64,000 nt of DNA, from assembly GCA_030323885.1 (NCBI GenBank), contig CM059196.1, forward strand, positions 40,500,535-40,564,534. Direction: 5' to 3'. Shown here piece by piece: positions 15,426 to 22,022 of this stretch; positions within the stretch are counted from its first letter, which is position 1; each line of letters starts with the position of its first letter. The translations under genes were made by a program, and so were the position numbers. This stretch comes from Branchipolynoe longqiensis. Its lineage: Eukaryota > Annelida > Polychaeta > Phyllodocida > Polynoidae. The notes under the pieces were generated by a model, which saw only the letters and a list, made by a program, of their open reading frames with translations, was not told the origin of the DNA and made no database searches.

Positions 15426-15970
15426 GATATACGCGTGTATATATTATCCTTTGCGCTAAAAAATTAACAAGTGATTAAACATGGGTACAATCTCAATCAG
15501 GTAGAAATGCAATCGCATGCGCACAGTGAAAAAAAATCGTTTTAAACCGGATGCCCTTTTAAACTCCGACACCGGCAGTGACAGGTGGGCGTGAGTGAAC
15601 GAGCGAGGGCGCGCTGAGAACTTCCCGATTTCTAATCATGTTAATGGCTGGCGCACACCTCCCGTTTACGACGTAAAACTGCCCGTTTACGACGTAAAAC
15701 TGTGTTTTAGTCGTTAGGTGTGCGACCCCCGCGCACACCAGAGCCTTGCGATTCGCGACTTAAAACTCAGTTTTAGGGCTTAAAACTCGAATCGCAAGGG
15801 ATTCGAAAAACGAATCAGGCCGTTCGAGAAACGGTAGGTGTGAGCGGTCAGTCGTATCGTAAACGGTATATCGGTGCTAGCCGCCGATCGGTCCCGTCCG
15901 AGTTTTAAGTGCCAGCCAATCACAAGGCCCGAAACCGTCATGTGACTTTGTCCCTACATACAAAACAAAA

Positions 15971-18023
15971 ATGGCGGACTGGACGGGCGAAACGGAGGGA
16001 AGGATGGTAGTCATGTGGCAAACTCTGCCCTGTTTATTCGATGTATCGTGTGCGGAGTACTCGAACCGAGTAAAGAAGATTGCCGCATTGGCGCAGATTT
16101 CAGCTGCAGTCGGACAATCCGGTACGCCCTTTTATCTCGTTTTAGCATGTTAATTCTGTTTGTAAACTCGGTCCGTGTGCACTCGCCACTAGTTCGCTTC
16201 ATTTAATTCGGCTCAATTGCCCATCGGTAGGCACATGCATACAAATTTTTAACTTCCACACTTATTATTTTTAACAAATGTTATTGTAATTGAAGTTCTG
16301 AACGTGTACTTTAAATATCAATATCCTTGAAATGTATACTTTTTTCAGCGGAGACAATCCAGAAAAGAATGACCAACCTACGCACACAGTACACCCATTT
16401 GCGAAAACAAGCGGCCTCTGGTTCAGAGGCCAAACGACTGACCACAAGGCAGAAGTGGATTCAGCTCTCGTTGTCCTTCCTTTCGCCACATGTCCAGAAA
16501 AGACAGAGTGTATCCAACCAACTGCTCCCCCTACCACGATGCACTGAAGCACCGGATGAGGTAAGGATAACTGTCAAGACTAATTACACTACGAGTTCTT
16601 AATTGTTTTTATTTACCGGCTTTATAGACAAGTGGAGTTCTAGATCATGTCCGACTGCCACGGCACAGAACTGGTCGATGAATTCACGTACTCCACCAAA
16701 TAGTCTCTTTGGGCTTTCGCACGTTGCGTGGAGTTTGTGCCTGATGGCAGTGTCGCCTGGCTCAGCAATCCATCACTTCTCCAGCTACCGGGGGTTACAA
16801 TGTGGGTAGTGGGGTCCTCTGAGTCAATGGTTGATGTCTGCCCAACCTTATCACGCAGGAAATTATGGAGCGCACAGCTTGCCATGACTACTTTTTCCAC
16901 CTTTGCCGGTCCTATGGCGATGTTGGTTTGAACGACGCGGAATCGGTTGGCCAGAATGCCGAAGGCATTTTCGACCACACGGCAGGCTCGCGACAGTCGG
17001 TAATTGAAGATGCGGTGATCAGTCCGCATGTCTCTGTGACTGATCGGCTTCATGATATATTCCTTCAGAGGAAACGCGTCATCAGCCACAATGAAATGCC
17101 TAATCGCCCGCTCGTCGCCGGGGAGAGCTTTGGGGGGTGGGAATGACTCAGCATGGTTCTCTAGGGCTTGCTGGAGGGTGCAGCCGGAAAACACTCCTCC
17201 GTCACTTACGCGGCCATTGCAGCCCACATCCACGTACAGAAAGCGATAGTCAGCATCCACTAGGGCCATCAGGACGATACTGAATGTATGTTTATAATTA
17301 TAGAATGAGGACCCTGAGTTCTTTGGTGGCTTTATGTGGATGTGCTTTCCATCCAGGGCGCCCATGCAATTTGGGAAATTCCATCGGGTGCTGAAGAGAT
17401 CAGCGACCTTCTTCCACTCGTCAGGGGTGGACGGGGACTGCAAAACATAAATACAAAGACAATCATATATATATACCAGTTTTGTTAATAAATCAATTGT
17501 TTCTCTCTTCCCCATGCAGGTCCCCGGTGATTACGAGGATAGTAACGATGAGGGGGAAGCACTCAGTATCTCATCGCAAAATCTGAGTGTGGTCGGAGAC
17601 AACCCGGAGGACGATGAGCTTCACTCCACCCGGACGACCCCCTCAAGGTCCACCCTAGGATCCGTCAGAAAGAGACCGGAGGGAGATAAGCGAGAGAATG
17701 CATTGATGGAACTTGTTATCCAAAACTTAGAGGAGAGCAAGACCGCTACTAAGCCCGAAAGTGAGGATGCGTTAGACATTTTCGGTAAAGACATAGTTAT
17801 GAAACTACGCCAGATAACCGACCCACGCATACAGTTGATCGTGCAGAACGAGATTGAACAGGCGTCTTTCCGCCGGAGGATGAAACTGCTAGAAAATCGA
17901 GGCCAAAGCACCCCATTGCAAATTGCTAGTTCACCGGGAACCGAAGTCCCTAGCCCACGCCCAGGGTCCTTCTCCTTCATTAACCTGTTGGGATCACCGG
18001 AGTACGCCGAGTATGAAACCTAA
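15971..18023 (+). CDS. MADF-domain DNA-binding protein of the Harbinger element
   Basis: Exons 15971-16121, 16349-16560 and 17520-18023 join in phase to 288 aa. Donors are GTACGC and GTAAGG; acceptors are TTTTTCAG and CCATGCAG. Residues 12-95 form a MADF (Myb/SANT-like) domain: MVVMWQTLPCLFDVSC, then EYSNRVKKIAALAQIS across the first splice, then LRTQYTHLRKQ. The middle is acidic and Ser-rich; the C-terminal LDIFGKDIVMKLRQI helix region is BESS-like, a protein-interaction motif. AATAAA at 18023-18028 overlaps the stop codon. Family knowledge: accessory MADF/SANT proteins of PIF/Harbinger elements bind the ends and help bring the transposase into the nucleus; a role here is inferred. Intron 2 contains transposase exon 3 in antisense. 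Confidence 0.85.
16608..16613 (-). terminator. Poly(A) signal of the transposase gene
   Basis: AATAAA on the minus strand, 27 bp past the stop and about 50 bp from the end of MADF exon 2. Confidence 0.65.
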
Positions 18024-21000
18024 ATAAAAGAACATACAAATACTCATGGCGTAATTTTTGTCCTTTAGCAAATCTTACCTTGAAGTAGTCATCCTTGTGT
18101 GCTGCGTATATGGCGTCACAGGTGTCGGGCACAATCTGGCCAATGGTGGTCGCCCCCACCCGGAACTGGTAGCTTAGGCTCTTGTATGACTCCCCTAGAA
18201 GCAGTGGGTATGGTTAAGAAATTTGTCCTACTACAGGTGGGTTGTGGGGTTTTTACTTCGTGGCATGGGTACCGAGTTGTGGCCGTGTATCCTTATCACT
18301 CTCTGGCGATAAGACTGGCGATTAGAATTTTAGGTACGTCTGATTATAATTAGGTTAACAATGGTTTAATCTACTCGGATTAACGACTTCACACACATGC
18401 GAACACAAACGATTCTTTTGTTTTTATTTCGGTCACTCGCGCACGCGCTGTCAATGTTTTCAACGACTCGTCACCGGCAACAGCTAATTCAGGAGCAACA
18501 CAATCATCCGCATTATGGCGACTTCTTCACACGGAAACTCCAGAATGGACAACTGGGACGACGAGGAAGTGACCGTCCTCATCAACCTGTGGGGTGACGA
18601 ACAAGTGCAGACAGCACTGGGGAGTTCTAGAAGAAACATAGAAGTGTACCGGCGGTTGGCCCGGAGGCTGCGCCGTCTGTGTAGCAGATGTCGGCCGGAA
18701 AGGAACGCCGTGGCATGCCGCACCAAATTAAAAAGCTTGACTCAAGCATACAAGAAATGCCGGGACAACAGCAAGTAAGTAATGTTGGTGTGTTGTGTGC
18801 TTTACGATCATTGTTGTTGCTAAATATTAACAAACGTCAGTGACTAACCCAGTGGCAGTTTATCTTCTGTATTAAGGTCCCGATCAATTTTCAGCCGCAC
18901 AACATATGTGAACATTAACCCATTTCTGCATTTCATCACTCGCAGTGACCGAGCGCGCGAGACGTTCCGATATTATGATGCGATAGAGGACGTTCTGGGG
19001 CCGAGGCGGCCAGCTGTACCCGACACCCTCTCTGTGGAATCAGGTAAGGGCCCCCCTTGGTGTAGCGTGATTCATTTCACACAACACAGAACCCTACAGA
19101 AAATAGTACAGATGAACCGTTGCACATGAAGCGAACTATTTGCAGTTGATTTATTACAGATGAACCATTCTATATGAAGCGAACTTGTTGAGTCGATTTA
19201 AGACCACACACAAAGGTCACAAAGGTCACAAACTCTATTATATCTACCTGTGGCCATGAAGCGGATTCATTTCACACAACACAGAACCCTACAGAAAATA
19301 GTACAGATGAACCGTTGCACATGAAGCTAACTATTTGCAGTTGATTTATTACAGATGAACCGTTCTATATGAAGCGAACTTGTTGAGTCGATTTAAGACC
19401 ACACACAATATATTTTTTAATTTTGTTTTCCAGACGCCGCCCCTGACGCCGACCCTGAAGAAATGGGCATGATGGAGGAGGAAGAGCTGGACGTGGCCCG
19501 TGAAGCGGCACCAGCCTCACAGACTGGCACCCCGGCCAGGCAACCCACACAGCCAAGTAAGCAACGTTGTAGTCATTGAAAGCGACGCCGCACTAACATA
19601 ACATCGCCAACCACTAAAAATGTGTACACATATCACGCAAGAACAAAAAGTCAATATTGATCAGTGGTGTAGTCGTATAGGAAACGCACTGTAAACAACC
19701 CGGTTATACATATAGCCCGTTGCCTGAATAACTCTATAAACACTCCATCCTTCTAATGACGCCTTTGTCGTAACAATATTTTTGGGTTCACCCATTGTAA
19801 TGGGATCGGGTTAATAATTGTCATCCAGAATATGGCCCTTTTTAGACATTATGCAACAAGTAACTTTAAACCAATTCAGGCTCAGAGGGTTTACGTAAAG
19901 TCCATTAGATGAAACCAACTAGTTGAGGCGATTTAGCTTATACTTGAAACCCACTCTGTTGACATTGCAGGGATGGGAAAGCACCACCACGTGATTGATA
20001 CAATCATCACGCAGTTCGTCACCGCTCAGAAAGAATCCACGGCCCTATACCAGGCGCACGAAGAAAGGCGGCAGCAAAGGGAAATGGACTTGGAGGAAAG
20101 GTGGCAGCAGCGGCAGATGGAACTAGAGGAAAGGCGGGACGAGCGTGAGATGGTTAACAAGAGGGAGCTCCGTAAACATGAGGAGCGGGTGATCGAGCTC
20201 CTCACGTCGATGCAACAGCGCGCACCACAGCCACAGCCGCAGCCGCAACAATTCCAGAGTGCGACGGCTGATGGGGTGACACGCATCACCCTCCTGACCC
20301 CACAAACAGCCCAAGCCGGACCGTCAAACCGCAGTCCAAGAACGAGTTTCTATGAATAGAAATAATGTGAACATTATCGGACATTATCGGAGATTGTACG
20401 AAACCAGTTTGTTGAAACCAGTTTGTGTTGAATTTTAATTCTCTTCTACACACTTTAACCCTGACCTTTCCTACGTGTCATTTGAATAAAAATGCACTTG
20501 TAGTTCCCTATATTATGCTTTCTTCCATCTTTTCTACACACTTCGTTATGTCATGATGTGAAATCGCCACTAGTTCGCTTCATATAATTCGGTTCATATA
20601 ATTCGGTTCATATAATTTGCCTTGTCTAAGTCGGCATACCATTACAGGGTTTAGCAGAGTTGGATCTGATCTAGGTCACAAAGGTCACAAACTCTATTAT
20701 ATCTACCTGTGGCCAGGAAGCGGTGGGTGATGGAAAGCCTCTCCGCAGGCGAGATCGACTCGCGATACCGAGTATTCTGCCGAGATATGCGATCTTGTAC
20801 CCGGCTGAGAAACTCGTCAAATTGCTCCGACGCCATCCTGGTGTAGTTGCTGAAGACTTGCGGTTCATCTGCACGCAATCCAGTCAACAGGGCGTTGAAG
20901 GCTCCAAGCTGGTCATGTTGCGCAATGTGTGGACGAACCCACACTTGCCTTCCTCGGTTACGCTGTCGACGACGACGTCGTATCACAAGCATCACAAGGC

Positions 21001-21049
21001 CAAGAGCAAGAGCAATCTTTCTCCTCTGTACAGCTGAATGCGGCGCCAT
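16640..21049 (-). CDS. PIF/Harbinger DDE transposase
   Basis: Exons on the minus strand: 21049-20707, 18194-18079 and 17437-16640, giving 418 aa with phase kept at both junctions. The first junction rebuilds the family motif FLATG / ESYKSLSYQFRVG; the second joins DDYFK / SPSTPDEW. The DDE_Tnp_4 nuclease core is intact: D in CMGALDGKHIHI, D in GRVSDGGVFSGC, E in RVVENAFGILANRF. The N-terminus (RRRRRQRNRGR) is basic. A minus-strand AATAAA (complement of 16608-16613) lies 27 bp after the stop. Family knowledge: it cuts and re-joins the element at TTA/TAA targets and usually needs an accessory SANT/MADF protein. Intron 1 (18195-20706) holds the whole trihelix coding region, and intron 2 (17438-18078) holds MADF exon 3. 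Confidence 0.92.
18023..18028 (+). terminator. Poly(A) signal of the MADF gene
   Basis: AATAAA starting on the last base of the TAA stop. The transposase intron 2 donor (complement of 18077-18078) lies only 50 bp further on. Confidence 0.65.
18515..20359 (+). CDS. Trihelix (Myb/SANT-like) protein of the Harbinger element
   Basis: Exons 18515-18774, 18946-19043, 19434-19556 and 19971-20359 join in phase to 289 aa. Residues 11-110 form a Myb_DNA-bind_4 trihelix domain: WDDEEVTVLINLWGDE, then CRTKLKSLTQAYKKCRDN, and after the first splice FRYYDAIEDVLG. An acidic linker follows (MMEEEELD), then a charged coiled coil (ERRQQREMDLEERWQQRQ and on), then a Gln/Pro-rich segment. AATAAA at 20485-20490. 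The gene lies wholly antisense inside transposase intron 1. NAIF1, the partner of the domesticated HARBI1 transposase in vertebrates, has the same domain class, so a DNA-binding helper role is a reasonable inference. Confidence 0.85.
19069..19213. repeat. 145-bp direct repeat, copy 1 (Harbinger internal)
   Basis: Near-identical to 19264-19408; both begin GATTCATTTCACACAACACA and end GATTTAAGACCACACACAA. Both copies lie in trihelix intron 2, which is also transposase intron 1. The 50 bp between them match the end of transposase exon 1. Confidence 0.85.
19264..19408. repeat. 145-bp direct repeat, copy 2 (Harbinger internal)
   Basis: Second copy at an offset of 195 bp. It contains CAGATGAACCGTTGCACATG and CTATATGAAGCGAACTTG. 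Confidence 0.85.
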
Positions 21050-21075
21050 CTTGCTTTGCCGCTCACTAACTGCTA

Positions 21076-21222
21076 GGAGGCGCTCAAGCTAGTGTAGTTC
21101 GCGCTAAAGACACCAGGTTCGTGCGAGGAGGCGCTCAAGCCAGTAGTGTAGTTTGTGCTAATGAGACCGGGAGGCGCTCAAGCTAGTAGTGTAGTTCGCG
21201 CTAAAGACACCAGGTTCATGGA
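21076..21222. repeat. Subterminal tandem repeat of the Harbinger right end
   Basis: Three copies, about 48-53 bp each, of GGAGGCGCTCAAGC, AGTGTAGTTCGCGCTAA and GACACCAGGTTC. They lie upstream of the transposase start codon, so they may be promoter elements or transposase-binding sites. Confidence 0.75.
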
Positions 21223-21377
21223 CCGCAGTCGCGAAATGGACGGTATATGTGAGCCCCCCAGTCGTTATATGTGTGCACCCCCTGTCGCCAGTTTTAGTGG
21301 CGAAACGGGTCGGGTCGGGTCGTGATGCGCAGTCAGTTTTAGATCCTTAATCGTAAACGGGAGGTGTGCGCATGGCC

Positions 21378-22022
21378 TTAAGGCCTTGGCGAGAAAGAAG
21401 GAATATCTAACATAATTTTAGCCAGTCTATATGCAGTGCGGGATTTAGGTGGAGAGAGGCCCTAGGTTATTCTACTAGTGAGGTCGGACCAGACAGGGTG
21501 GCCGAATGAGTTGAGCGTCCGTCTCCTGGTTTGGTAGATCGTGGGTCTCGAACCCACAGGTTCGAACCCTGGTCGAATTAAACAAATGACATACAAATTT
21601 ATACTTGTCGCTTCAGAGCCAGGCACTCTGTATTATTAGGATAGGGCAAGGACTGGTTGTCTCAGTGTCAGGATAATGTGACTGAGTGGGATATCAGGTC
21701 ATGATGTTGGTGACCTGGTCTCCCAGTGGGGCAGCACTATAAAGTTGCCATAATCGCCGGAGCCCCCCTAGATAGTGACGCCCTAGGCTTCAGCTTGCCA
21801 ATCCTATATGGTAAATCTGTCACTACCTATAAAAATGGATAATTGTCCCATATGTATAGGTTATTAAACAGCTAGAACCCAATAGGATTGTCCAGGGTGG
21901 TGTAGGTGTGGTAGAATGAGATTCTAAAAGCACAATATTAGCGCAATATTGAAATTCCATAGTCCAATGGTTTTGAGTTTCTGCCATTTTCTGAGATGAA
22001 TCGGTAATGTCTATTTTACTTT
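21378..22022 (+). mobile_element. Truncated type A SINE followed by an R2 MITE fragment
   Basis: 21488-21757 is a type A SINE (GGTGGCCGAATGAGTTGAGC, CAGGTTCGAACCCTGG, GGATAATGTGACTGAGTGG) that stops at GCAGCACTATAAAGTTGCC and lacks the tail. 21955-22015 (TCCATAGTCCAATGG, TTTTGAGTTTCTGCCATTTT) is an R2 piece broken by the element starting at 22023. No gene. Confidence 0.6.

Follow-up and report, generated by a model that had tools for sequence, protein, structure and literature searches.

How many genes a PIF/Harbinger transposon can hold, and how they can share its two strands, are questions raised by a locus of the annelid Branchipolynoe longqiensis. In the accessible part of PMC9710019, all known plant and animal PIF elements are stated to have two genes, whose proteins are both required, the helper being needed for nuclear colocalisation and binding to a subterminal motif; two ORFs are likewise given in the accessible part of PMC9179366. 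The window analysed here, a stretch of 64,000 nucleotides (C11:40500535-40564534 of a 1.85-Gb assembly), had been predicted to contain a Harbinger element with three complete genes, and the reading of its exons together with Pfam matches bears this out. At window positions 15645-21377, limits that had been given in the original prediction and that are the element's own ends, there is a PIF/Harbinger transposon whose inverted ends measure 27 nt, whose flanks are TWA and which holds three complete spliced gene models.

The element and its three genes

The features of the element are as follows, in window coordinates (L035 is a sister element and ATGAAGCGAACTAGTTGAG a repeated motif, both described below).

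15642-15644, no strand: left flanking TWA (TAA)
15645-15671, plus: left terminal inverted repeat, 27 nt
15661-15702, plus: subterminal repeat of 21 nt, present twice in tandem
15971-16121, plus: MADF exon 1
16184-16202, minus: ATGAAGCGAACTAGTTGAG copy in MADF intron 1, not part of the trihelix block
16349-16560, plus: MADF exon 2
16640-17437, minus: transposase exon 3 (DDE domain), within MADF intron 2
17520-18023, plus: MADF exon 3, within transposase intron 2; the stop codon's last base is the first of AATAAA
18079-18194, minus: transposase exon 2
18226-20704, no strand: trihelix block without DNA match in L035, which has about 200 bp there
18515-18774, plus: trihelix exon 1 (Myb_DNA-bind_4)
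18946-19043, plus: trihelix exon 2
19126-19387, plus: four ATGAAGCGAACTAGTTGAG copies in trihelix intron 2 (starts 19126, 19174, 19321 and 19369)
19434-19556, plus: trihelix exon 3
19909-19927, plus: ATGAAGCGAACTAGTTGAG copy in trihelix intron 3
19971-20359, plus: trihelix exon 4
20565-20611, minus: three overlapping ATGAAGCGAACTAGTTGAG copies 3' of the trihelix gene
20707-21049, minus: transposase exon 1
21351-21377, minus: right terminal inverted repeat, 27 nt
21378-21380, no strand: right flanking TWA (TTA)

The ten coding exons can all be read, with fitting phases and GT/AG junctions, without altering any base, and every intron is of the GT-AG type; the splicing of all three genes is predicted from these junctions in the DNA. 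The minus-strand transposase gene encodes 418 aa, and the plus-strand MADF and trihelix genes encode 288 and 289 aa, respectively. The interlocking is as had been proposed: transposase exon 3 lies in MADF intron 2, MADF exon 3 lies in transposase intron 2, all four trihelix coding exons lie within transposase intron 1, and no coding exon overlaps another.

The three products match Pfam families, all above the curated cut-offs: DDE_Tnp_4 (PF13359) for the transposase (E=2.6e-31), MADF_DNA_bdg for the MADF protein (E=1.9e-12) and Myb_DNA-bind_4 for the trihelix protein (E=1.3e-15). The MADF protein also gives a weak match to Myb_DNA-bind_4 (E=0.055). The idea that MADF and trihelix are duplicates of one gene was rejected, the BLASTP similarity between them not being meaningful. 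The motifs LDGKH, SDGGV and VENAFG, which we take to belong to the catalytic triad of the transposase, occur in each of the 17 open transposase frames. Residues about 200-245 of the MADF protein, C-terminal to the MADF domain, may form a BESS-like stretch, which the Pfam scan does not report. A sequence search for PDB relatives of the transposase gave none at E<=1, and a comparison of the trihelix protein with a large protein collection gave no homologue at E<=0.001. The element has the marks of the Harbinger superfamily, namely a DDE_Tnp_4 transposase, terminal inverted repeats and a second gene with a Myb/SANT/MADF domain (MADF, to which trihelix is added). It departs from the two-gene arrangement in having three genes, each with a low Ka/Ks between subfamilies; this does not exclude it from the superfamily, because the accessible part of PMC4482050 ascribes two genes to "most" PIF/Harbinger families.

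TWA flanks, a PIF/Harbinger feature according to the same accessible text (PMC4482050), are seen on both sides of every one of the 22 family copies with two ends, the window copy included. Their middle base is the same on both sides in just 14 of the 22, with a chance expectation of 11.3 (hand calculation), and it differs in the window copy (TAA left, TTA right). Ectopic conversion and an unusual cutting mode are candidate readings of the unlike middle bases. The family copies typically start with TGGCTGGCGCACACC; in the right terminal inverted repeat of the window copy, the outermost 6 bases are unlike those of the other copies. Searched on both strands, TAAAACTG occurs three times in the left 300 bp and twice in the right 300 bp, with no occurrence in the intervening 5133 bp. 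Being confined to both ends, it may serve the transposase or the MADF protein. Within trihelix intron 2, two 145-nt copies (99% identical; window 19069-19408) flank a 51-nt stretch at 19214-19264, which duplicates, at 98%, the stretch spanning the donor of transposase exon 1 (window 20673-20723). This duplicate looks like repair filler and would place the donor sequence again inside transposase intron 1.

Sister families, a second lineage and the probable source of the trihelix gene

When the genome was searched with the transposase and MADF proteins, many diverged relatives were among the matches listed. These matches include 76 transposase places outside the 28 places of the window's own family (see below), and 15 of them have a MADF piece within 4 kb. 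In all 15, MADF lies on the strand opposite to the transposase, and a MADF piece precedes transposase exon 3 by 624-811 bases (midpoint to midpoint, in transposase sense); by coordinates, MADF pieces flank transposase exon 3 on both sides in only 5 of these 15 listed places. One of the 15, L035, is interlocked in sequence: its MADF exons at 626-844 and 1806-2306 lie around transposase exon 3 at 1740-922, while transposase exons 2 and 1 are at 2706-2581 and 3262-2921, respectively. Its transposase exon 2 lacks an AG acceptor; all other readable junctions are kept. The claim that the layout is unusual therefore stands in part: the element departs from the two-gene description in the accessible text of PMC9710019, but transposase/MADF interlocking is found also in L035 and in the 5 listed places. 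The interlocking is probably not universal, because some MADF relatives are in one open frame (e.g., C9:57551403-57552212). Another of the 15 places, C11:83464347, possibly belongs to the window's family as a decayed copy.

Identity between L035 and the window is 70%, 83% and 82% in transposase exons 1, 2 and 3, respectively, and 58% in MADF exon 3. Since the DNA homology stops at window 18225 and restarts at 20705, the trihelix block is present in the window and absent in L035, where transposase intron 1 has about 215 bases (some 200 bp in place of the 2.5-kb block). No trihelix match at E<=1 is found in L035 within 5.4 kb, a stretch starting inside MADF exon 1. A trihelix piece is found at 4 of the 15 listed transposase/MADF places, and 11 are without a listed trihelix, some of which may be deletion copies.

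Another Harbinger lineage in the same genome, called lineage 2 here, has a trihelix gene too. At L036/L037 (C12:65805800-65814000), it adjoins a DDE_Tnp_4 transposase 30% identical to that of the window. Identity to the window's trihelix gene is 64% in exon 1, 45% in a piece of exon 2 and 49% in exon 4; the junctions, read by eye, are at matching places, and AATAAA is found downstream. L036/L037 gave no MADF match at E<=1, and a search for terminal repeats of lineage 2 gave no clear pair. With the lineage-2 transposase, the genome search gave 150 places among the matches listed. Leaving the family copies aside, 71 trihelix places are listed. A lineage-2 transposase lies within 6 kb of 28 of them (27 elements), and in 28 of 28 the trihelix gene is on the other strand, 3' of the transposase, in agreement with convergent two-gene elements. 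The other 43 comprise 4 near a window-type transposase and 39 with neither partner listed. A MADF place lies within 6 kb of a lineage-2 transposase in 1 of the 150 listed (C6:91890010-91893973, opposite strands); such absences of partners are soft, since only the best candidates are scored in these searches. The lineage-2 Harbinger appears to lie within a retroelement, with a reverse-transcriptase-like frame to its left (L037:447-1268) and a possible gag-like frame at the right end of L036, both read by eye.

The motif ATGAAGCGAACTAGTTGAG, which was picked after both elements had been seen and some copies of which are tandem duplicates, was counted with up to 5 mismatches, with 20 letter shuffles as a control. 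It occurs nine times in the element (shuffle mean 0.05) and eight times in lineage 2 (0.2), as well as six times in the stretch of the family copy L013 (0) and nine times in that of L002 (0.05). None occurs in L035 (0.15), and none elsewhere in the window (58 kb; 1.85). The motif is proposed as a putative binding site of the trihelix protein.

A helper gene that is 64/49% identical beside a transposase that is 30% identical is hard to explain by whole-element descent, because helpers outpace the transposase within the group. Judged from these identities, the trihelix gene most likely moved between Harbinger lineages. That the gene passed from lineage 2 to the window's family is suggested by its absence in L035 and by the 11 listed transposase/MADF places without it; this direction is a weaker conclusion than the exchange. 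At C6:68933211, C9:45149404 and C3:28388815, trihelix pieces 80-81% identical to those of the window lie on the corresponding side of a transposase exon; the acquisition thus probably predates the present family. The contrary case weighed in the original prediction, that one gene was inserted later, appears to apply to trihelix, most likely a later acquisition in view of its non-detection in L035 and its being typical of lineage 2. It is not a recent foreign insertion, being common to the family copies and having a low Ka/Ks.

The best explanation, which we regard as probable, is a chimera: an interlocked transposase/MADF Harbinger, the ancestor of which gained a trihelix helper, together with its introns and repeat motifs, from another Harbinger lineage. 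The transposase and the MADF helper would have been interlocked tail-into-tail, an arrangement common to the sister families, and the four-exon trihelix gene, of the type of a distant Harbinger lineage, would have been set in transposase intron 1. One route to this chimera, rather than its opposite, is the arrival of trihelix as a lineage-2 transposon nested in transposase intron 1, with later loss of its ends and transposase. We consider this route possible while leaning against it. Both Harbingers are present in one genome and the edges of the trihelix block are near those of the intron, but the sole match to the lineage-2 transposase in the element at E below 0.1 is the native transposase; nor is there an end-like repeat at the block borders, where matches with <=3 mismatches are scattered inside the block only, a weak test since the lineage-2 ends are guessed. 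Nesting of a complete second element was rejected, no second set of terminal repeats being found around the trihelix block, with the same reservation about lineage-2 ends.

Copies of the family and probable selection on the three genes

A whole-genome DNA search gave 102 matches, which were grouped by hand into 28 places (the window and 27 fetched); copies beyond these exist, as protein searches show additional places. The sequences of L011 and L022 include runs of N. Further copies had been suggested as a check on the layout: 22 of the 28 places match all ten exons (some partly) in the same order and on the same strands, and exon-by-exon BLAST gave a contrary order or strand in none of the 28. 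The remaining six (L022, L024, L028, L032, L033 and L034) are without one or more exons, and those left are in order. Trihelix exons 1-2 are missing in L024, and all four in L034. Junctions other than GT/AG are found only where an exon or exon end is missing, in trihelix intron 1 of L009 and L025 and in parts of L022, L024, L028 and L032-L034. The copies are related by descent, and therefore they show the layout as a property of the family.

The closest pair of copies (L030/L031) is 99.3% identical, from which it follows that the family moved fairly recently. The subfamily of the window includes L002, L009, L010, L024 and L033, each about 98% identical to the window copy. L033 sits inside another related element, its right flank being about 90-93% like the left ends of the family. 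At C6:68932654-68936101, transposase exon 3 is 95% like that of the window, two MADF pieces are 70% and 84% like theirs, and trihelix is 80%, an uneven divergence that suggests recombination between families.

Open frames are kept at 17 (transposase), 18 (MADF) and 9 (trihelix) of the 28 places. All three are open in four (the window, L013, L015 and L030), and 24 are without at least one. Between the window and open copies of the other subfamily, Ka/Ks is 0.26-0.43 for the transposase (13 copies, of which L011 looks mixed), 0.28-0.40 for MADF (14 copies, the highest two of which, L020 and L028, have a shifted end) and 0.23-0.30 for trihelix (8 copies), values that are somewhat biased downwards by the choice of open-frame copies, which are not independent. 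Inside the window's subfamily, it is 0.74-1.15 over few changes for the transposase (3 copies) and 0.17-0.54 for MADF (3 copies). The frames are regarded as genes because of their Pfam matches and Ka/Ks. This combination of Ka/Ks and broken frames is what one would expect if the genes were under selection during transposition and then decayed in place.

That trihelix is a passenger without a role in transposition would agree with its being open at about half as many places as either of the other genes, but its Ka/Ks between subfamilies is the lowest of the three, and pieces about 80% identical are kept at three further transposase places; a mere passenger is thus unlikely. A three-gene ancestral state, from which L035-like families lost trihelix and lineage 2 lost MADF, is quite unlikely. 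Losses are easy, as in L024 and L034, but they would be needed repeatedly, at the 11 of 15 listed transposase/MADF places without a listed trihelix; moreover, transposases 30% identical between lineages stand beside trihelix exons at 64/45/49%, yet helpers diverge faster than the transposase inside the group (58% in MADF exon 3 vs 82% in transposase exon 3). Interlocking as a gene-calling artefact of antisense or chance frames, to which gene models built on DNA alone are open, is scarcely credible in the face of three separate Pfam families, conserved junctions, exons that correspond in L035 and lineage 2, and a Ka/Ks that is low for every gene.

Two putative helpers in one element and the predicted ends of its transcripts

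In the chimeric element, the transposase would cut at the inverted ends and join them to TWA, and MADF would be the native helper for nuclear import and/or end binding, as in other Harbingers. By analogy with the two-gene Harbingers in the accessible text of PMC9710019, transposase and MADF would constitute the basic machine. The trihelix protein would bind ATGAAGCGAACTAGTTGAG, adding the function of a second DNA-bound recruiter or a regulator. It is conceivable, if rather doubtful, that two helper systems operate simultaneously: the native MADF, tied to the transposase by the exon order that they share, and a captured trihelix with its own site array, the latter borrowing target or end recognition from the other lineage or competing for its sites.

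The two-gene PIF/Harbingers, as presented in the accessible parts of PMC9710019 and PMC4482050, share with the window's element a DDE transposase, TWA flanks, terminal inverted repeats and a Myb/SANT/MADF helper, but they do not share its three genes, two unrelated helpers and interlocked exons on opposite strands. Zebrafish Harbinger3_DR likewise has a transposase and a Myb-like protein, and its helper binds a short subterminal motif; unlike the window's element, it has one helper only in that description (PMC9710019, accessible part). Third genes without Myb/SANT are reported for fungal Harbinger relatives. PHISTA, fungal relatives that carry TET, and HarbingerS, which carries SET, resemble the present case in extra genes and in gene passage between transposon lineages, whereas their extra gene is for an epigenetic enzyme, their flanks are TA and interlocking is unmentioned in the accessible part (PMC12730594). 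Kolobok/KolobokP is likewise a DNA transposon with a second gene, and a transposon helicase gene is mentioned as lying on the complementary strand, but it belongs to another superfamily, and interlocked exons are unmentioned in the accessible text (PMC9587614); that of PMC7998251, too, holds nothing on such a layout. In searches of open PubMed Central text, no paper was recognised as describing a Harbinger with both MADF and trihelix, or with interlocked exons; a relative that is unpublished or catalogued elsewhere may exist.

If its trihelix gene was borrowed, as appears to be the case, this element shows how Harbingers can collect helper genes. Why they need a helper, and how transposase and helper stay matched, are not settled questions; with an interlocked family, a convergent lineage and a probable three-gene chimera in one genome, helper swapping and the role of interlocking become testable. 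If the two-helper reading is true, interlocking would be a way to keep cooperating genes together. Annotation that assumes one strand per transposon would probably split such elements.

The primary transcripts of the three genes should overlap, which could hold expression down. A[AT]TAAA follows the stop codon of MADF in 25 of 25 copies and that of trihelix in 24 of 27, but that of the transposase in 4 of 27 (absent in 23). Transposase intron 1 contains 6 AWTAAA in transposase sense (1.5 expected). With so few transposase signals and these six in the intron, clean transcript ends are not assured; a clean separation of the transcripts by poly(A) signals was rejected, the transposase signal being present in 4 of 27 copies only. 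The interlocking itself may, as a conjecture that has no trace in the sequence, have arisen when the two adjoining last exons were duplicated in tandem and one copy of each was then lost. In a comparison with six copies of the other subfamily, divergence is lowest in two short stretches that separate exons on opposite strands: it is 0.003 over the 55 bases from MADF exon 3 to transposase exon 2, and 0.013 over the 82 bases from transposase exon 3 to MADF exon 3. Coding exons show 0.024-0.075, and a third such stretch, the 79 bases that separate MADF exon 2 from transposase exon 3, is ordinary (0.036). As the copies are related, the low values are suggestive only. In the two least-diverged stretches, the splice sites of one gene adjoin either the splice sites of the other gene or its poly(A) signal.
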